NCBI GenBank assembly: GCA_963920525.1
Contig: OY986439.1
Coordinates: 208,909,406-208,973,405 of the forward strand
From: Dichetophora obliterata
Lineage: Eukaryota > Arthropoda > Insecta > Diptera > Sciomyzidae
Reading direction: 5' to 3'
Length of the DNA stretch: 64,000 nt
A program made the translations under genes and the position numbers. The notes under the pieces were generated by a model, which saw only the letters and a list, made by a program, of their open reading frames with translations, had not been told where the DNA came from and did not search any database. This document shows, one piece after another, positions 31,718 through 64,000 of this stretch; position 1 is the stretch's first letter, and each line of letters starts with the position of its first letter.

Positions 31718-33374
31718 ATGTCTGATGGAAAAAGACGTCGTTATAGAAAAAATAAGGTACTCCTCAATTTAAAAAAATGCTGCGATCAGTTTTAACTATT
31801 AAGCTTTTCCTAACTCATAGCAGCAGGAAGAAAAACGGCCGGTGATTTTGGCAAAGCGGGAAGCTTCTGCTTTTCCCAGTTCGAGTGGCGGTCAAAGGCA
31901 AATGGAAGCGGACCTACATCCTAAAATATTGTTGAAAACCAAGGATGACTTCAAGACTACTAGCAGCTACTCAAGTAGTAGCAACGCTCTATCTACATCG
32001 CCACATAGTGAATTACTCGCCATGCAGCAGGCACCACAGAAAACTATCATAGTGACACGCAGTGAAGCAGTACCCAGTCCGTCAATGAATAGCATGAGTC
32101 CAAATACGAATAAAGAAATGCTATCTGGGGCTGGGGAAGCGACGGTAGCACAGCCGCATCAGCAGCTGCAACAGCCACAACTTGTCGAACCCACTCCTCA
32201 GATGACGCGGCCTGCTACGCTCATCTCATCCACAGGCTTCATTAATTCCAGCGTACGCAAGTTACTATTAAAATCTAACACAGATTTTCTGGTCGTAGGC
32301 GTGATTGGCATGCAGGTGCGTAGATTATATTTGCTTAATTTTATGTCTGCATAACATTTTCCTTGTATTTTCTTAGGGCGTGGGTAAGTCCACTATCATG
32401 AATTTGCTGGCAAATGAGCAACACGAATATGACTATTATAATAAGGTGTTCATTGAGGAAGACTCCATCTTTCCCACTAAGTTGAAGTTACACAAATGCT
32501 CGGCGCGCTCACGAACTGAATCCACACACATGTTCATTACCAAAGAACGCATAATTCTACTCGATAGTCCACCAGTACTGTGCAACTCGTACAAAAAGGA
32601 CATGGTAACCAATGAACTGGATGATATACGCAATATTATAACTTTTCTATCAGTTTGCCATCTGGTGATTGTGGTGCAGGACGATTATTTCAATATAAAC
32701 TTTATGCGGATGCTGCAGTTTGCCGAGCTCATGAAGCCGGCACAGGATAACAAACCTTTTGCTAGCGATTACTTTCCGAACATTCTGTACGTTAAAAATC
32801 GTGCTAAACGGCATGATTTTATGCCTGGACAGAAAGAACGCATGGACAGAATGCTCAAGTGTTTCTTCAAAGACTCGCAGTTGCGCATCTATTTGGGACA
32901 GACAGTAGAGCAACAGCGTCTGCGCAAATGGCGCGTACCAGAATCGGAACGTGTGGTCAACAGTATCTTGTTGCCGGAAGTAAAAAGTAAGTATACTAAT
33001 GGCAATAGAGTAAAACAATTGCAAAGAAATTTTTTTTTTTTTTTTTGCATTTTTAAATATAAATTTTCACATATTTTTAACAAGCTGCTGAAGCTACATC
33101 CTTTCATGCTGCTCTCAAGTGCATTGTTGAAGAACTGCGGAATCTGGTTTTTATGACGCCCCGCTCTGAAATGTATGCCGGCCCCAACGAGCTTACGGAA
33201 GCCATTTGGTTTGAGCTGCTCACCTTAGTGTCTGCAGATAATCAACAATTTTTGTTCAATACCTATGAAGAAATTCATCGCAAAAACTTGGATGTAGGCA
33301 ACAGCGCCAGCAACAGTACTGGCACCGGTGTTAACAGTAGCAAAGAAACTAATGATGTATGGTCGGATAAATAA
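31718..33374 (+). CDS. Smg9: SMG9 homologue (nonsense-mediated mRNA decay factor), four exons
   Basis: Exons: 31718-31756 (MSDGKRRRYRKNK), 31827-32315 (acceptor also possible at 31821 or 31824), 32377-32986, 33085-33374. All are GT-AG and in phase, about 475-477 residues. The N-terminal third is Ser/Gln/Pro-rich and disordered. The GTPase-like core begins SNTDFLVVGVIGMQ|GVGKST, with the P-loop split by an intron. FITKERIILLDSPPVL, VCHLVIVVQDDYFNINFMRML and YFPNILYVKNRAKRHDF follow, all matching SMG9. SMG9 pairs with SMG8 to restrain the SMG1 kinase that phosphorylates UPF1. The human protein is about 520 residues. The first exon follows 150 bp after a transposon cluster, so its promoter must be short or lie within repeat DNA. 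An AATAAA overlaps the stop codon, but the real 3' end is probably further downstream. Confidence 0.92.
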
Positions 33375-37197: not shown

Positions 37198-37646
37198 TTG
37201 ACTTAATTTTACATTAATTTATTTATAATTTTTAATGTCAAAGTGGAGTCCTCGAAAGCTGTTTCGGGGAAGCACGGTCTCCAAAGTATTCAACCGATTT
37301 GGCTAAAAATATCACTAGTTATTCAAGATACACATAGTTAAATAACTAACCTTTAAAATATGTAATTTTTTAATAATAAATTCATTTTTTTAAACATTTT
37401 ATCAACAGAAAAAAAATTAGATTTCGAGTACCTTCTTTTCACAAGTCCGCCATTATGTTTTTAATATGCATATTATTGGTTAGTTCATTAGATTTAGGTC
37501 TACACAATAATAATCTCTTCGATTTTTTTATTTCAGATGACTACGGAAAGCTGTGTGCTTCCCCGAAACAGCTCACCATTCTTTCGAGGACTCCATCCAC
37601 TTTGACATTAAAAATTATAAATAAATTAATGTAAAATTAAGTCAAA
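37198..37646. mobile_element. TIR element, ~80-bp inverted ends
   Basis: TTGACTTAATTTTACATTAA at about 37198 and its mirror ending at about 37646 continue inward for about 80 bp, through AATTTTTAATGTCAAAGTGG, GGAGTCCTCGAAAG and AGCTGTTTCGGGGAAGCAC. Two small indels separate the arms (TGGA and ATGGTG). A diverged direct relative of the core follows at about 37830-38040 (shared GGGAAGCAC, TTTTGCT.AAAAT.ATCAC and TAACCTTTAAAAAT), so the region holds at least two related copies. Confidence 0.65.
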
Positions 37647-38499: not shown

Positions 38500-39465
38500 C
38501 GGTCATGATTTTTTTTTAAAAAAATCAACAATAATAAAACAAATAATCGTTATTTTTTAACTGATTTCATATCGTTTTAAAAAAAAGTTAAATTTGGCTT
38601 TTAGTTTTTCGATCAAAAATAAAAGCTAAAAATTACTTTTATTTTTTCGATCAAAAATATGAGTTAAAATTTGACTTTTATTTTTTATCAAAAATAAAAG
38701 TTAAAATTTTCGGTCAAAAATATAAGTTAAAATTTGACTTTAATTTTTTCGATCAAAATTAAAAGTTAAAATTTTACTTTTATTTGTTTGATAAAAAATA
38801 AAAGTTAAAAGTTAATAAAAATTAAAATTTAATTTTTATTTTTCCGATAAAAAATAGAGATTAAAAATTGGTCAGATCTATTTCCTATAAACTATTATAA
38901 TAGTTTGAATTTTCAAAACAATTAATAGAGTACATTTCTTATTCTTTACACATATATTCGTAACATTTTTGCACAGAGATAAAAACATTGCTATCGATCT
39001 TCATATCATTGCATTGCATCGCTTAGTTGCTTATCATTGCACATTCTGTTTTCATTTATTTCGCAAACGACTAGAAAAGCGACTGCAAGCAGATGATATA
39101 AGAATTAAAATATGACTTTTACTTTTGATCGAAAAAATAAAAGTCAAGCTTCAACTGTTATTTTTGATCGAAAAATAAAAGTCAAATTTTAACTTTTATA
39201 TTTGATCCAAAAAATAAAAGTCAAGCTTTAACTGTTATTTTTGATCGAAAAAATAAAAGTCAAATTTTAACTTTTATATTTGATTAAAAAAATAAAAGTA
39301 AAATTTTAACCATAATTTTGGATCAAAATAAAAAATCAAATTCTAACTCTTATATATTATGAAAAAATATAAGTCAAATTATAACTTTTATTTTTGATCG
39401 AAATAAAATTGGTCAAAAAATAACAATTATTTATTGACTTTTTTAAAAAAATCAAAAAAATTCAA
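38500..39465. repeat. Foldback element with tandem-array arms (TTTTATTTTTCGATCAAAAATAAAAG units)
   Basis: 38570-38870 and 39100-39430 each carry about seven tandem ~35-40-bp units of the form TTTTATTTTTCGATCAAAAA plus TAAAAGTTAAAATTTGAC. The two arrays run in opposite orientation around a ~230-bp unique centre. Outer flanks 38505-38570 and 39400-39460 are also inverted to each other. Each unit is itself palindromic around CGATC/GATCG. No coding capacity. Confidence 0.75.
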
Positions 39466-42007
39466 AACATTAAAGATTATTATTCCTCAGCTAACAAGCA
39501 TCACATTGCTATATTCAAATATCGAATAGACTTACTCTTTCCATTTAAATTTTTTAATAGAAATTTCGGAAATAACTGTTATTTTCAGTCTCTGGTAATA
39601 ACATATTTTTAATTATAACATTTGAATCATAACGCACTCTTAGTCTTGAAATTTGTTAAAGCCTTTTCTACTAAGCGGCAAAAATTATTTTATAAAAAGC
39701 TATTGTTAATATGCTAATGAAAGTTTACTGGTTTAAACTAAATGATTGCAAGAAAAAAAAATTCAATCCTTAATCAATTCAAATATTGGCTTTGATAATA
39801 TTGCAAAATTACTAGCATCCATTTTGTTCGGTCTGGAATGTGTGATTGATTTTAAATTACGTATGTTTTGTTATATGTAGACAATGTTTGGTGTTTTTTT
39901 TTTAAATAATTTTTAATTTTTTGAGTTAATTTTATTTTTTTTTATTTTTTTTACGATTTTTTAAGTGTTGTTGTTTATTTCCAACTATGTGACAATTATG
40001 TTTTTCTTCCTTTCTACGCTTCTTTTTTCTTACGTACCGCTTAAAACTCTAAACAGTTCATTAAGACTAATTTTAAAATTGAAAATTTAACTAGTTTTTT
40101 TTTGTAATTTCTTTAATTTGATTTAAACTTTTATTTTGAAACATTTGAGTTGCTTTTGCATCCATCTACTGTAATAATTGTTGCGTTTAGAGTAAATTTT
40201 CTTTCGCTTATGTTTTGGCTTGCAAATATTTTTCTGCTTTAAATTTGTTACGTTACGTTTATGTTATATTTTAAATGATATTAATAACATTTTAATTTTT
40301 GTTTTTTTTTTATATCGCTAACTTCTTATTTGCATCTGCACAGCAGAAAGTACAATAAAAGTTTTTAATTTTATTTATTTTCTTAAATTTTTATTATGCA
40401 CTTTTAACATTAAAGTAATTTTTCTTCCATTGTCTGAATGTGTAAGTTTTGTTGTTGTCGTTTTTCGCTAGTTATAAATGTTTATTTGAGCAAAGTGTTT
40501 AAACTACGTGTGCTGTTGGAAAATAGCGTTGTTTATAACTGCTCCTCTTTTTCCACGGCTACACTCATTTATATGTAAAAAATAGTAGTACTTAAAATAT
40601 TTACAAAAACAATTATAAAATTTATTTAAAATATTGCAAAATTTAAAAATTTTTAGTTATAGTTAAGGAAACAAAAAAACAAATATATCTCGCCTTAAAT
40701 GCATTTATAGACCTGAATATTTAGTTGAAAATTGTTGCACTACTTTTTTTGCTATTTTGTTTTTATTTTTTAAAAAAATTCATCTGGTTTTTCATAAGTT
40801 TTGTCTACAAAATTTGTTTACATTTAACTTTTCGTGAATTTTTTTTAACTATTATTTGAATCATTTCTTAGTTTGGTGTACTAGGTGTTTTTCATTTTTT
40901 TTGTTTTTTTCTATTGACGTCACAAAAATTTGAGTTCGCTTTTCATTTCGGAATTCATAATAATAATTATTATCCAGAGTTGTTGTAACAAACAAGAGCG
41001 TGAACGTAAATTATTTTAAAAATAAATACTAAGACTAAAGCCTTAAGTTTAAACAAATGCCATATAAGCTAAAAAAAATTAGGAAAACTCGGTGTTAATT
41101 TGTATTGTGAGAATGTTTGTGAAATGCTACGAATGTCTTTTGTTGTTATTGTTTCTAAGCTACGCTAAGTAAGTGCGCGAGAAAGAGCTTTTTTTAATGA
41201 GTAAAAAATTAGTTCAAAAATAGACCAACATTAACTTTTTTCTATTATTAGGATTTCGTTCATTCCTTGATTTTTTGAAAACTGCTATTAGTTTTCCAAG
41301 CTTTTATAATATATTGATAAAATGAATTCGTGCTGACACTTTTTGAATTAAAATATTTGCCTGAAATAAAATTAATTTTTTTCAACTTTTTATTAAAACA
41401 CTTTAAAGATTTCTCAAATCTTTTCAATCAAAATTTTACTAAAAAATTCATACAAAGTTTCTCAAATGTAACTTTTGGCAGCTTGCAATAAGTTTCAGAA
41501 AAATTTTCCTGAACTTTCCTATGGAACTATGTTTTAAATTTTTATCGTTAAATATTTATGTCTTAATATCATTTTTACCATATGAATTCTGTCGAATTTT
41601 GAATTAATGTTGTGCTTTTCGAGAAGTTTTAAAAATTTCCCAAAAATTTCCCAAAAAATTCCCTTGTGGGAAATTTTGACGTGCTTACAATTTTTTGTTT
41701 AACACACATATAAAAAAGTTCCAAGTGTAAATAATGCTTTTATTATGTATTAATTGAATTCGTATTGGCTTTTTGAAGTGTTTTAAAATATTTGATGAAA
41801 TTTAATAGTTTATTTTTTTTAAATATTTAAAAAATGATGCATAATAATAAGTTGCATTTATAACAACTTTTTGAGATGTTTAAAAAATTTCCCCAAAATT
41901 TTCCTCATGGGAAATTTGATTTTTTGAGATTTATATAATGAATTGTGACCTCTGATGATTTTACGAGATTATAATTTGGAACTTTAGGTCAAGTAATTTA
42001 TGAAATA
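39466..42007. other. AT-rich DNA, no gene seen; possible long 3' UTR of the tweety-family gene
   Basis: No coding exon. Homopolymer T tracts are common. Copies of the AAATTTCCC/GGGAAATTT motif appear at 41636-41680 and 41886-41915. Minus-strand transcripts of the downstream gene could extend into this stretch, but no processing site is identified with confidence. Confidence 0.35.
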
Positions 42008-42120
42008 AGGCAACAACAACAACAACTCTGTATAAAGTCAATCCCGCCGCAGACTAGAGAAGCCTGCTTCGGAAGTAGCTGCACTTCCTCTTCAGTAGTC
42101 TTGGGTGATTCAGCTGTGAC
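42008..42120. repeat. Diverged interspersed repeat related to 3713-3903 and 5245-5290
   Basis: A (CAA)n block with CTCTGTATA is followed by GTCAATCC and AGACTAGAGAAGCCTGCTTC, then TTCAGTAGTCTTGGGTGATTC. The reverse complement matches the right half of the 3713-3903 element and the block at 5245-5290. Confidence 0.6.
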
Positions 42121-42695
42121 CAGCCCATTGCTTAAGTTTTATATGATTTGACACTTGTTCGAATAAACTCATCTGAATAATATGACGGTAAATGCAAGTG
42201 GATCTTATTTTTTGTGTTAAGCCTTAAACTTTATTAGAGTTGTGCATGCAAAAAAGTTGCTTTTCTCTCTTTTCTACGATCCCCCCTCACTTTTTTCTAC
42301 CCCTTTTTTTTACTTGTTTTACTTATCACATTTGAAAACTTCATTGAATTTTATTTTTGTTCATTAAAAAGCTCTTTCTCCCTCACTCCTCGTCTTGATT
42401 TCATATAAATTTCTCCGTAAGCTTTATCTAAATTTCTTTAGTTTTTACTTTTATTTTCGCCTCGTTTTTGGTTTTTTTTTTAATTTACTCTTCGTCCAAT
42501 TTCGAAAATCAACTAAAATATGCTTAATAATGCCGCCAAACCTTCGCTTTGAATCGCTTACAATTATTATTACAAATCCACGTTAAAATGCCGCCTCCTC
42601 TCACTCAGAAACTAGCCAGCAACTGTTGCTGTTGTTGTTCGTGCTGCTGCTGTTCTACGCGGAGTGGTGGAATATTTTTATGACGTCTCTAAAAA

Positions 42696-45120
42696 TCATA
42701 CTTTGAATGTCTTTTCGCGTCGCTGTTGACGTTGTTGTGGCACGCTGCCGTTGGGCATGTTGCTGCTACTGCTGCCACCAGCATGTGGTGCATCGCTGTC
42801 AACAATATACGATGACATGCGATGATCGCTGCGTGAACGCTCACGATCATGTGTTCGATGGTCACGATGTTCGCTGCGATGTTCACGATGCTTGTTGTTG
42901 CTGAGGCTAACAGCATGTTGCAGCTGCTGTTGCTGTTGTGCACGTCGATTACCCAGTCGTTGCAGCTCATAGTCACGTGCATCGGCCACATCAATTGTGG
43001 CTGAGCGCTGCTGATGTTTACGCGAGCCGTGTTGCTGATGCGCACGTGGCTGCTGCTCTCGTTGCTGCTGCTGCTGCTGTTGGGGTTTGTGCTGCGGATA
43101 GTATTCGTCGTATTCGTGCTCATCGCACACGTTCGCATTCGGACTGGGCCCGTGGTAGGAGGCGGAACGGTTCTGCTTCGTTGTCTTTGGTGGCAGTGGA
43201 GCGGGCGGTGCGACAGTTACTGTTGCCGCTGCTGTGGTCGATGTTGTTGATGTTGCTTTTGTGGCGCAATTGGCACGCCGCACAACATCAACGCCACCGC
43301 CACAGCAGGCACACTCCTACAACTCGGTGACTGAGTAGAGATCGTTGTTGGCATGTGAGCCGCCGCGTTTAAGCGAGCGATAGTAAAGATGTTGTTGATC
43401 GGTATATTGCTGCTGCTGCTGTTGTTGCTGTTGCTTGCTGCTGGAGTGAGCATGATGGTAGTTGTTGTTATCGCTACGCTGTTGCCCGGTTGTGGTGAGC
43501 ACGCTGCTGGCGTGGCGCTGCGGTGGTGGCGGTTGATGTTGTTGTTGCTGATAATATTGTTGTGGATATGCAGGGTCGTATGAGTGTTGCTTTTTCAGGC
43601 CGCTGCTGTATTGATCCATGTACGACATGCGTCCATTATCGAGCGTTTCGGAACGTCGGGGACGCTCGGAAGAGCGCTCACGATTGCGCTCGTAGCCAAA
43701 TGTGGAGGACGACTGCTGTTGACGCAAGCTGGCGGATTTTGGTGGCAACGTTTGCATGTGGTTGGCATTTGTAGCAGAGGAGGAGGAGGAGTTGGTGCGC
43801 CCATCTTTATGGCGATTTTTAGGTGGCAGGGACGGTGGTTGTTGTTGTTGTTGCTGCTGATACTGCTGCTGAGCTACAACTTGCATTTTTTGTGTTGGCC
43901 GCTGAAGAGAACGATACTGATTTAAATTAGCGGCACACAGCGGTTGCGGCGATATCTTTGACTGCTGCTGTGGTTGTGGTTGTTGTGGTTGCTGCTGTTG
44001 CGGTATTTCGGGCAGCGGTTGATTAACAATGGATGCCGGATTTAGCGATCGCTGCTGGCGCATCGGCTCACGCGACGACGTGACTGAAGACTCGCGAGTG
44101 GGCACAGTTTGCACTGCAATGGTTGGAGCGTGCTGTGGCTGTTGTTGTTGCTGCTGCTGCTGCTGCTGCTGGTAGCCGGATGTCTCGATGCTGTAAACAG
44201 CTGATGGAGGCAGAATGTGTGTGGTGGGAGGATGAAGTGGCTGCTGTGGCTGTGGAGGTGGTGGTGGCGGGGGTTGCGACTCCTGCTGTTGTTGCTGCTG
44301 CTGTTGCTGCAGTTGTTGGAAGTGCTGCTGTTGCAGCTGCAACTGCTGCTGTTCCTTGGCATAACAGCTGCCTACACCCGTGGTGCCAGGTATATCCGTG
44401 AACGTGTTCGTATTCTTTGGCTTCAGGGGCGGTGCGGGTGGTGGTGGTTGAGGTTGCTGTTGCGGTACTATCTGTTCGGTTGTGTACGTTTGTGGAATGC
44501 AGTCCGGCTGTTGACAATAGTCCTTGCTGACTGTGGCAATCGAGGGCGTCTTGGCGCTGCGCAGATTGGGTGAAGGACTGGCACCTTTTAGAGAACCGCC
44601 ATAGCGGCCAACATGCCGCAGAGTCGCACATTTGTTGGCAGTAGCAGCGGCAACAACGTTGAGGTTGTTATTGCCACGAACCGCCTTCGGACCGATGCTA
44701 ATGTACTTGGGATCGAAGCGGTTGAAGCTGTTGTTGCTGACATCACGCGGGTCCTTATCGTCGTCGAGTAAGCTATTTGGGTTGTCGAGACCACCGCCGA
44801 TGGACTTGCAGATGCTATGCGATGTTTGTGCCGAAAGCACCGACTTGATGGAGGAACCAGATGAGCGCGGTAGTGTGGCTGAGGCGAATATATTCTTAAG
44901 GGAGGTGTTGGTTTTGGCGTTAGCATTGACATTGATGTTAAAGTTGTTATTGATGCCTGCAGCGGTGTTGCAGGCAAGCGATTCTCAGTAGAAGTCGTTG
45001 GATTCGAGCGTTTTACACTGTTTGCTGAGCGTGGCGTACTTGCCGTTATTGGGACCGGAGAGATACGCCGACGAGTGCTGATGATGCGAAGGCAGACGAC
45101 CTAGTGTGTGGTGGCCAGAT
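42696..45120 (-). CDS. Terminal exon of the tweety-family gene: C terminus, in-frame TGA, then a 555-codon and a 206-codon extension
   Basis: The acceptor acccatag at 45121 opens a frame on the minus strand. 44 codons (GRLPSHHQHSSAYLSGPNNG to LESNDFY) run to TGA at 44987-44985. The same frame then continues for 555 sense codons to TAG at 43319-43317 and for 206 more to TGA at 42698-42696. The first extension is glutamine/proline-rich (Q runs, PPPPAPPLKPK), with non-repetitive parts such as RFDPKYISIGPKAVRGNNN and serine/arginine segments. The second has PLPPKTTKQNRSASYHG, DEHEYDEYY and an acidic-basic HREHRSEHRDHR stretch. The pattern suggests a tail produced by stop-codon readthrough, or by a splice form avoiding the stops. 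The base protein is a tweety-family membrane protein whose core exons are at 55.8-56.8 kb; the joining codon phase (2) fits. Confidence 0.75.
44954..44987 (-). promoter_or_regulatory. Stem-loop right after the TGA stop, candidate readthrough element
   Basis: After TGA (44987-44985) and an 8-nt spacer, TGCCTGCA (44976-44969) pairs perfectly with TGCAGGCA (44961-44954) around the 7-nt loop ACACCGC. Stem-loops just 3' of a leaky stop promote readthrough in some fly genes, headcase being the classic case. Function here is inference. Confidence 0.55.
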
Positions 45121-46564
45121 CTATGGGTTGATTTGAAAAGCAGCAGAGTAGATAGATAGAAAGAGAAGAACAGAAAGCAGACAATTTTGTTAGAAATACG
45201 AAAAGAGCATAAAAAAGAATGGAAATAATGGAAAATCCTAACATTTCAAAGCTGTGTAAAGGAGAAAAAAATGCTCCCACTTTAAAAGAGATTTTTTAAA
45301 GAAATTTTAATGAGTTCATAAAGTTTTTTGCAATCTTTTAGCTTGGGCAGAATTTTTCCCCTTTTCAGGCTTGGCTTCAAAGCAGTGATGTACGCATGGA
45401 GCTAGTTAATTAAATTTCTATCTGCTATAAAACACTTAAAACCAACATTTGGCCTTTGTTAAGACTCAGATATGAGCACAAACATGCAAACATGCACACA
45501 CATACAAACACGCACACGCGAGCACACTCACACACATGTATAGCAGCTGTTGCCAGCCCTTTTATTTGCATTTTCTTAACAACTTCTGCAAGCTTGTCCC
45601 ATTTCAAAGAAGTTTTTCAGCTGCCAGTGTTGCATTTGTAACAACTTTGAAAGGTGTCAAAAACAGCAAACAATTTTAATTGCTCGTAGACAGCTGAGAC
45701 AGTTTTTTGTTGTATGTTATTATGTATGTTCAGTTGTACAGCTAATTAAGGCTTGAATTGCATAAAATGCAGCAACTTGAAGTCAGCAGAATCTTAAGGG
45801 TTAAGGAAAAAGGGCTTTTGAGGGGGACGGAGGCGTAGAAAGCCTTAGAGCTAACAAGTTGATTAAATTGAAAGAAATTTTTTTTTCGCTGACAGCTAAC
45901 TGTTGACGTTTAACTGTTTTGAATTACAACGGTTTTTAGTCCTTAGCTTTGAAAAGAGGAGCTAGTAAAAAAAGGGAAATTTTGAGGGAAGTTATGAAAG
46001 CAGTTGAAAGTTTTCTATGACCTTTATTAACAAAAAAGGTAGTAGCTCAAAATAGCTAAGCTCGAAAAGGGAAATTTTAATGGCAATTTTGATGGGAAAT
46101 TTTGACAATTTTGTGGAAAATTTTTAGAAAAAACTATGGGAAATCAGTTAGCGAGAATTTTAATAAAAGCTTGGTGGAAATATTTATAAAAAATTTGATG
46201 AGAAATTTTTATAGAAAAATGAAAAATCTTAGTTCATAGAAGTTAATCTGAATTTAGAAAAAAAATTTCAGATAACAATTCAGCTTGATTTTTTTTTTTA
46301 CTAAAAATAAAATAATATTTTATGAAAAAGTCTAAAAAGTGCCTTAATCTATAACGCACATAAAATGCTATATTTTTATGATAAATTTTCGTGTAAGAGT
46401 TTTTAAAGAAACAGCTGTGAATTGTTGCTTAGTTGAGACAATTTAGACATAGTTGAGATATTAATACAATGGCTAAAAAAAGGCGTAAAAACAAAACATT
46501 TGGAAATACATATACTTGAACACTATTCTACAAATTCTATAAAATTTTTTTATCTAGAGACCTT
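45121..46564. other. Part of the 10.7-kb tweety intron, no gene seen
   Basis: It includes an imperfect CA/TG-rich stretch at 45470-45540 and several GGGAAATTTT motifs at 45972, 46068 and 46102. No exon recognised. Confidence 0.45.
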
Positions 46565-55778: not shown

Positions 55779-56759
55779 TCAAACAAAGCCATGCCTTGTG
55801 CCATGCACCACAACATCATAACCAGGCGGTGGTGATGGTGAGGCTTTGCCATCACCGGCACCGCCACCGCTGCTAGGACTATTCTTATGATGAGCATGTT
55901 TGTTGTATGCCAACCCTTGTCTCATGCCAGCTGTGCCGTTACGATGCGGGCCCAAAGTGCCACCGCCGCTGCTGCCACTTCCAATGGCAGGGCCAATGCC
56001 CATGCCATGCGCCTGCTGATGATGATGCAGCAATGTACGATTGATGGTGCCGCCGCTTGTGATAGGTGCTGTAGGCGAGATGCTGGCGCTAGGCGCATTC
56101 GAGGGAAACAGCGGTGCAGTCTCCGATTTGTCAGCCTCCAATGGGGGACTGGATAGTAAGGGAGAGAGAAAAGAAAAATATAAAATATATTAAAATTATT
56201 ATTGAAGCAAGTTTTAATAAAGTACATCAGGGCGTATGAGTAACAATTTAAATGAATTTTATGTAACGCAAACGCAGTGTGGTCAAAAGCACTCTTACCG
56301 TTTTGTCAGATAAATCCACGCATGTGAGTCGGCATAAACAAGTATGGTGAGCAGGAAAGAGGTGAGCAGGCCAGCCACCATCATTAGACTGAGTCCTAGC
56401 AGACCACCGCCACAGAGACCACGTAAAGCTTCCGCATAATGTTTATCGATGGCGCGTCTATCCAAAGTAGCCGAGAGTACAGTCAAATTGCGTTTTGTCT
56501 CCTCCAAATCATTGTCCATGGCCTCCAGTGTACGATGCACATCGATGCGCGGATACGTTTCTTGACTCATTCTAGGTGAAAATAAAGTAATGAAAAAATG
56601 ATTTTAAGCTATTTAATGAAACTTTTCAATTGCCACCCACTTTTGTACTAAATACACTGATTCACGCGCACGTTCCACCAAGTCACGCGACTCATTTAAA
56701 CGTAGAATAAAACGATTACGTAGCGTGCCGCAGTTCAAGAAATATACATAAGGACTTCG
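55779..56759 (-). CDS. Tweety-family membrane protein (TTYH-like), three internal/3' exons
   Basis: Minus-strand exons: 56759-56641 (RSPYVYFLNCGTLRNRF to YLVQ), 56571-56299, and 56148 to either a GC-type donor after 55795 or the TGA at 55781-55779. Junctions are in phase (CAA AA|A; ACA AAA CG|T). Together they encode the last extracellular segment and the fifth membrane span: LNCGTLRNRFILRLNESRD, TLEAMDNDLEETKRNLTVL, HYAEALRGLC, then a hydrophobic LLGLSLMMVAGLLTSFLLTI. This matches TTYH proteins, which have a C..S.RNPF..RL pattern and then GL..LL.FS. Tweety proteins are linked to large-conductance or volume-regulated anion currents, though recent structures question a pore. The cytosolic tail is Gly/Ser/Pro/His-rich and ends PPPGYDVVVHGTR, a PPxY-like motif family members also have. 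Upstream exons lie beyond 56.8 kb and were not found; 5'-partial. It could be tweety or its fly paralogue. Confidence 0.85.

Positions 56760-64000
<7,241 letters not shown>

Follow-up and report, generated by a model that had tools for sequence, protein, structure and literature searches.

A tweety-family gene of Dichetophora obliterata with two candidate readthrough stop codons in its terminal exon

The terminal exon of a tweety-family gene in the fly Dichetophora obliterata carries a single reading frame that continues past two in-frame stop codons. The gene was analyzed within a window of 64,000 nucleotides (contig OY986439.1, positions 208,909,406 to 208,973,405). The frame runs from SGHHTLGR to LESNDFY at a first stop, TGA, is then open for 555 codons to a TAG, and is open again for 206 codons to a final TGA. 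Both extensions are conserved at the protein level in other insects, and the conserved blocks reach both stops. These findings are best explained by programmed readthrough of both stops, which on the sequence evidence we consider very probable. The initial annotation had proposed a candidate double readthrough here. Its coordinates and frame were confirmed, and the proposal itself is supported by protein conservation that extends up to each stop and appears to resume 1 to 3 residues after it.

The minus strand of the window contains the 3' part of the gene, in four exons with in-frame joins (Table 1). No exon 5' of 56759 was found within the window, and we take the remaining 5' part to lie outside, so that the gene is partial here. 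The gene part inside the window matches the Pfam Tweety domain, PF04906, with an E value of 1.7e-30 over positions 322-411 of the 431 in the profile. Judged by protein identity, the gene is of the CG3638 type and is the ortholog of Drosophila CG3638 (Motor, a tweety paralog), which we take to be FBgn0261444. The ORF 1 part is identical to D. melanogaster CG3638 at 234 of 291 residues, and the database form of CG3638 (isoform F, P0003) terminates at DFY. The junction VHGTR/SGHHTLGR agrees with CG3638 P0003 and with Episyrphus P0007. The intron preceding the terminal exon (55795-55794, minus strand) apparently uses the GC donor AAG/gcatgg. Since the Glossina model continues past the same site (RHGF), this donor may have been conserved. 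The terminal exon (45120-42696, minus strand) follows the acceptor ...cccatag/ATCTGG, has its first base at 45120, and extends to the last TGA.

Table 1 Features of the tweety-family gene and of its candidate readthrough region in window coordinates (a slash marks a splice junction).
Feature	Position	Strand	Evidence
Tweety exon	56641..56759	-	In-frame join to the following exon; residues shared with Glossina P0001 and D. melanogaster P0003
Tweety exon with end of Pfam domain	56299..56571	-	ORF 56298-56603 contains PF04906
Exon with likely GC-AG donor at its 3' end (AAG/gcatgg)	55795..56148	-	Junction VHGTR/SGHHTLGR
Terminal exon, end of ORF 1 (...CKTLESNDFY)	44988..45120	-	Identical or nearly identical C terminus in P0003, P0004, P0007-P0010
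First putative leaky stop TGA, context TAC TGA GAA	44985..44987	-	Reading frame
Predicted hairpin 1, 8-bp perfect stem, starting 8 nt past TGA	44954..44976	-	Fold prediction
Extension 1, 555 codons, end ...NNDLYSVTEL	43320..44984	-	At least 55 related proteins
Second putative leaky stop TAG, context TTG TAG GAG	43317..43319	-	Reading frame
Predicted long hairpin 2, core stem from 8 nt past TAG	43229..43308	-	Fold prediction
Extension 2, 206 codons, end ...RREKTFKV	42699..43316	-	14 related proteins
Final stop TGA, without significant structure after it	42696..42698	-	Fold z 0.12; composition shift at this point

The length of the open frames was compared with chance by phase-blind Markov sequences of orders 1, 2, 3, and 5, built from the same stretch, with 2000 sequences for each order. 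A directly open frame of at least 555 codons was found in 0/2000 sequences at each of the four orders. Even when the best run among the three forward frames of 2.5 kb was taken, 555 codons were reached in 0 to 0.05%. The length of extension 1 is not due to chance. A directly open run of at least 206 codons occurred in 0.6 to 1.6% of the Markov sequences; the length of extension 2 alone is not very remarkable, and its case depends on conservation. The residues of extension 1 are glutamine-rich and of low complexity. The initial annotation had considered that glutamine-repeat DNA could keep the frame open by chance and had judged this insufficient for the full length. This was borne out, with 0/8000 simulated sequences directly open for 555 codons; a chance frame from glutamine repeats is excluded for extension 1 by the simulation and for both extensions by conservation. 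Per codon position, the GC content ranged from 0.45 to 0.68 within the extensions, compared with 0.30 to 0.38 over the 600 bases past the final stop. The Pfam search gave no match in extension 1, and its single match in extension 2 (TFIIA, E 0.4) was below threshold.

Both extensions, in which protein-like segments had been noticed, proved to be conserved as protein in other insects. The query around the first stop retrieved 13 proteins, four extension-1 sequences retrieved at least 55, and extension 2 retrieved 14. Six of the 13 proteins terminate at DFY, matching the first TGA (D. melanogaster, D. grimshawi, Episyrphus, Nicrophorus, Anopheles epiroticus, and Ctenocephalides). The remaining seven comprise Glossina P0001, three Dendroctonus models, and P0002, P0005, and P0006, which contain an extension only. 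D. melanogaster is represented among these 13 by its short form, with no long form. Among the at least 55 matches to extension 1 are proteins of flies, mosquitoes, and sandflies. Species labels are carried by 11/55 of them: Glossina, Topomyia, Anopheles maculatus, Aedes aegypti, Ceratitis, Musca vetustissima, Lutzomyia, Sergentomyia, Pseudolycoriella, Teleopsis, and D. melanogaster (SD02285p). Similarly, 5/14 matches to extension 2 are labeled, and all are from flies (Haematobia, Teleopsis, Sarcophaga, Zeugodacus, and D. sechellia). Glossina P0001, which was found by the search around the first stop, also contains extension 2. The second step, into extension 2, looks younger than the first because the species-labeled matches of extension 1 include mosquitoes and sandflies, whereas those of extension 2 are restricted to higher flies; this age comparison is subject to database coverage, with 9/14 extension-2 matches carrying no species label.

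Identity to Glossina was 196/237 in the ORF 1 part, 274/404 in extension 1, and 96/172 in extension 2. Extension 1 was identical to D. melanogaster SD02285p at 295/411 residues and to Ceratitis at 354/483 residues, and extension 2 to Haematobia at 115/193 residues. The Glossina protein scored 1493 in the claimed frame and no more than 81 in any of the other five, and the Topomyia protein scored 511 in the claimed frame and at most 86 elsewhere. Scans of viral and prokaryote contigs for nucleotide relatives returned 81 and 95 pattern matches, none of which was a relative. Several relatives (P0036, P0038, P0039, P0044, P0051-P0053, P0057, and P0059) show by eye unrelated, intron-like leaders before DKDPRD. 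In P0050, P0056, P0062, and P0063, an intron-like divergence after NNDLYSV was seen by eye; the corresponding region of the window is one exon.

The conserved residues lie on both sides of both stops. Positions right after a stop in the relatives were assigned by protein alignment. By this alignment, the mosquito protein Topomyia P0002 starts with ESPACN, which aligns with ESLACN of the window directly past the TGA, and it ends with NNDLYSVTEL, the last ten residues of the window ahead of the TAG. Lutzomyia P0024 begins with PAC, two residues further in after the TGA. At the second stop, the aligned Haematobia P0065 begins with CACCGGGVDVVRR, one residue past the TAG, and Glossina carries ECACCGGGVDVVRR by alignment, with 14/14 residues identical to the window after the TAG. 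At the second site, the Glossina model lacks only VTEL and the stop, a gap too short for an intron. With residues conserved on both sides of both stops, neither an intron over the stop nor an internal start would explain the data, and the search for an intron, an internal start, or a selenocysteine signal, in which splice sites were scored approximately, gave none that would serve as an explanation.

Splicing was considered as the main rival to readthrough. An intron could remove each stop in some transcripts, and the extensions would then come from alternative splicing. The Dendroctonus models P0011-P0013 give some support to this, as they join KYATLSKQ to another tail that ends in AVTEL (tail likeness by eye) and skip the DFY end. 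The unrelated leaders before DKDPRD in several relatives also resemble an upstream intron by eye. Splice-site scoring of frame-keeping pairs gave no convincing intron across either stop. Among the frame-keeping GT-AG pairs (127 around stop 1 and 877 around stop 2), no pair reached 4 bits at both of its sites, a two-site threshold that one of the two scored real introns also fails. The best pair sums were 2.5 for stop 1 and -0.5 for stop 2, compared with 9.1 and 8.2 for the two GT-AG introns of the gene. The scoring is crude: its weights are approximate, the terminal exon's own acceptor scored -0.7, and one real donor scored 2.6. The conserved residues that flank each stop on both sides would not be preserved by an intron there, and we regard removal of the stops by splicing as quite improbable in this gene. 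The Dendroctonus models suggest that splicing may serve the same purpose elsewhere, and they hint at a possible replacement of splicing by readthrough, or the reverse.

Internal starts on the same mRNA could yield the extensions as separate proteins. Annotation records and the D. melanogaster clone protein SD02285p do list extension 1 or extension 2 separately, and the gene models of Teleopsis, Haematobia, Aedes, and others keep the extension as a separate, often partial, protein. The first methionine is residue 308 in extension 1 and residue 167 in extension 2, whereas the conserved blocks start at the first residues, so a downstream AUG cannot produce the conserved starts; moreover, the ORF 1 frame continues through both stops. 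Internal initiation therefore has very little probability. These records suggest that a single gene is at present annotated as separate false genes in several insects, for example Teleopsis, Haematobia, and Aedes.

Both UGA and UAG could become UGG, the tryptophan codon, by A-to-I RNA editing, and the stops would then be passed without ribosomal misreading. Two relatives, P0021 and P0042, have W at the first stop, which is the sole W in each; either the codon is TGG, or TGA was translated as W by a gene caller. The leader of P0042 is unrelated, and P0021 begins within the exon. Both look like gene calls from genomic DNA, in which case the W does not come from editing, and the predicted core stems sit 3' of the stops. 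Editing is likewise very improbable. Selenocysteine insertion would fit the UGA at the first stop, but selenocysteine is not known to use UAG, the second stop, and the SECIS families gave no match in 40500-45200 up to E 1, which leaves this explanation next to no probability. The Rfam search up to E 1 gave two opposite-strand matches, far under the gathering scores, which were taken as chance.

Programmed readthrough can be assisted by RNA structure, and such structure is predicted close downstream of both stops, strong after stop 2 on 90 nt or more and weak after stop 1. Hairpin 1 had a folding energy of -13.3 kcal/mol on 66 nt (z -1.81, with 9/200 shuffles as stable); on 96 nt, z was -1.53, with 16/200 shuffles as stable. 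On 42 nt, 24/1000 synonymous-codon controls were as stable, and this level of stability was reached by 19/255 windows of 42 nt. Among 810 codon positions, hairpin 1 ranked 47 on 42 nt and 619 on 99 nt. The predicted hairpin 1 is thus weak evidence. Its arms encode AC...AG, a pattern with 1 to 4 intervening residues that is present in 5/5 compared sequences, counting that of the window; codon-aligned pairing of this kind is possible by chance at 188/2058 positions in four relatives. The conservation of AC...AG fits a kept stem but could be protein conservation.

Hairpin 2 is more stable on long folds, with -48.9 kcal/mol on 98 nt (z -4.66, with 0/200 shuffles as stable). The synonymous-codon controls as stable as hairpin 2 numbered 6/1000 on 90 nt, 8/1000 on 99 nt, and 461/1000 on 60 nt. 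On 68 nt, z was -0.41, with 59/200 shuffles as stable; hairpin 2 is unremarkable on 60 and 68 nt because its far arm is cut away. On 99 nt, it ranked 2/810, and a stronger synonymous z was reached by one further 99-nt window of extension 1. When 102 nt after the TAG were folded, additional pairs began closer to the stop. Since the longer folds pair nearer the stops, the equal eight-base spacing is valid for the core stems only. RNA structure is not a requirement for readthrough; according to part of PMC5100048, it is predicted close downstream in about 10% of readthrough candidates. In dfr, part of PMC13170385 places a stem-loop at +10 to +58, with distance and stability affecting efficiency. 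The base after both stops is G, unlike the ancient readthrough stops, which the same partial text of PMC5100048 describes as richer in TGA-C.

The ends of the extensions are conserved as well. Among the extension-1 matches listed, 36/55 end in TEL, as the window does at the second stop. Of the 19/55 without a TEL end, 4 diverge after NNDLYSV, Glossina P0001 runs into extension 2, P0033 is a spliced model, and the rest end elsewhere. With the three Dendroctonus models added to the 55 extension-1 matches, the combined TEL count is 39/58. Y is sixth from the end in 39/39 TEL-ending proteins, the three beetle models included; because these 39 were selected by the TEL ending, the counts of T, E, and L are circular and that of Y is not. 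Similarly, 14/14 extension-2 matches end in REKTFKV. Ends conserved in this way suggest that termination at each of the sites is important. A class I PDZ ligand is [ST]-x-hydrophobic at the C terminus; TEL fits class I, and FKV fits class II. By motif, the extension 1 tip VTEL is therefore a candidate class I ligand. TEL and FKV suggest two kinds of PDZ ligand, and with them a C terminus of three possible states. PDZ sites have been noted earlier among readthrough extensions, as part of PMC4999894 describes.

From these features we infer how the gene would work. Most ribosomes would terminate at the TGA and give the ordinary protein with the LESNDFY end, which is the short database form. Some ribosomes would insert an amino acid at the TGA and continue for 555 residues to the tip YSVTEL, and part of those would also pass the TAG and add 206 residues with the tip REKTFKV. 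The hairpins close behind the stops probably act by slowing the ribosome or by impeding release. With a distinct conserved tip on each longer form, readthrough would alter the set of scaffold proteins that anchor the membrane protein. More tentatively, and with the balance leaning somewhat against it, we propose a three-state switch, in which hairpin-equipped stops on one mRNA would select the tips DFY, TEL (class I PDZ), or FKV (class II). Its first step would date back at least to the divergence of flies and mosquitoes, and its second would have been added in higher flies, replacing a splicing choice that is still used in beetles.

Double readthrough is known in flies. The initial annotation had called two successive leaky stops and an extension of more than 500 residues exceptional, which is too strong: as given in part of PMC4528330, FlyBase in 2015 held 328 readthrough genes, 22 of them double and two triple, with extensions of 4 to more than 1000 residues. 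In Anopheles gambiae, part of PMC5100048 counts 35 double readthrough candidates, 13 of them with adjacent double stops. The present gene resembles the FlyBase and Anopheles double readthrough genes in having two successive leaky stops in one frame; here, in contrast, extension 1 has a wider species range than extension 2 among the labeled matches. It also resembles Drosophila headcase, kelch, Synapsin, traffic jam, and drifter in having an in-frame conserved extension past a putative leaky stop, and differs from them in having two distant stops, each with a predicted hairpin and its own conserved C-terminal tip. Although double readthrough and extensions of more than 1000 residues are already known in flies, the anatomy here looks unusually clear. 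Long readthrough extensions that mix low-complexity and conserved stretches are described in part of PMC4528330. The 8-mer CAGCAGCA, which codes for glutamine, is enriched among readthrough candidates by the partial text of PMC5100048; it was counted 18 times in extension 1 and 4 times in extension 2.

The literature search, confined to the texts of papers, found no report that joins tweety or CG3638 with readthrough, and the word readthrough is absent from the main texts, as available in part, of two papers mentioning CG3638, PMC8273234 and PMC11175612. It is quite possible that CG3638 is listed in the FlyBase readthrough catalogue. The fly ortholog affects embryonic movement (PMC11175612, in part), and its disruption was lethal in some studies (PMC8273234, in part). 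If the double readthrough is true, ribosomes that pass both stops would give a membrane protein a different docking end, and two predicted hairpins behind two leaky stops in one exon would offer a clean test of structure-driven readthrough.

Other elements were observed elsewhere in the window. Two open stretches at 31821-33156 (plus strand) resemble SMG9, a nonsense-mediated decay factor, and have no Pfam match. A perfect 50-nt inverted repeat at 37198-37645, with its copies 348 nt apart, resembles a small terminal-inverted-repeat element; by eye, more of the sequence inside matches as well. An AT-rich array of about 900 nt lies at 38541-39432, and its units match in both orientations, which gives many overlapping inverted repeats. 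At 62187-62532, the dinucleotide GT is repeated 173 times without interruption.
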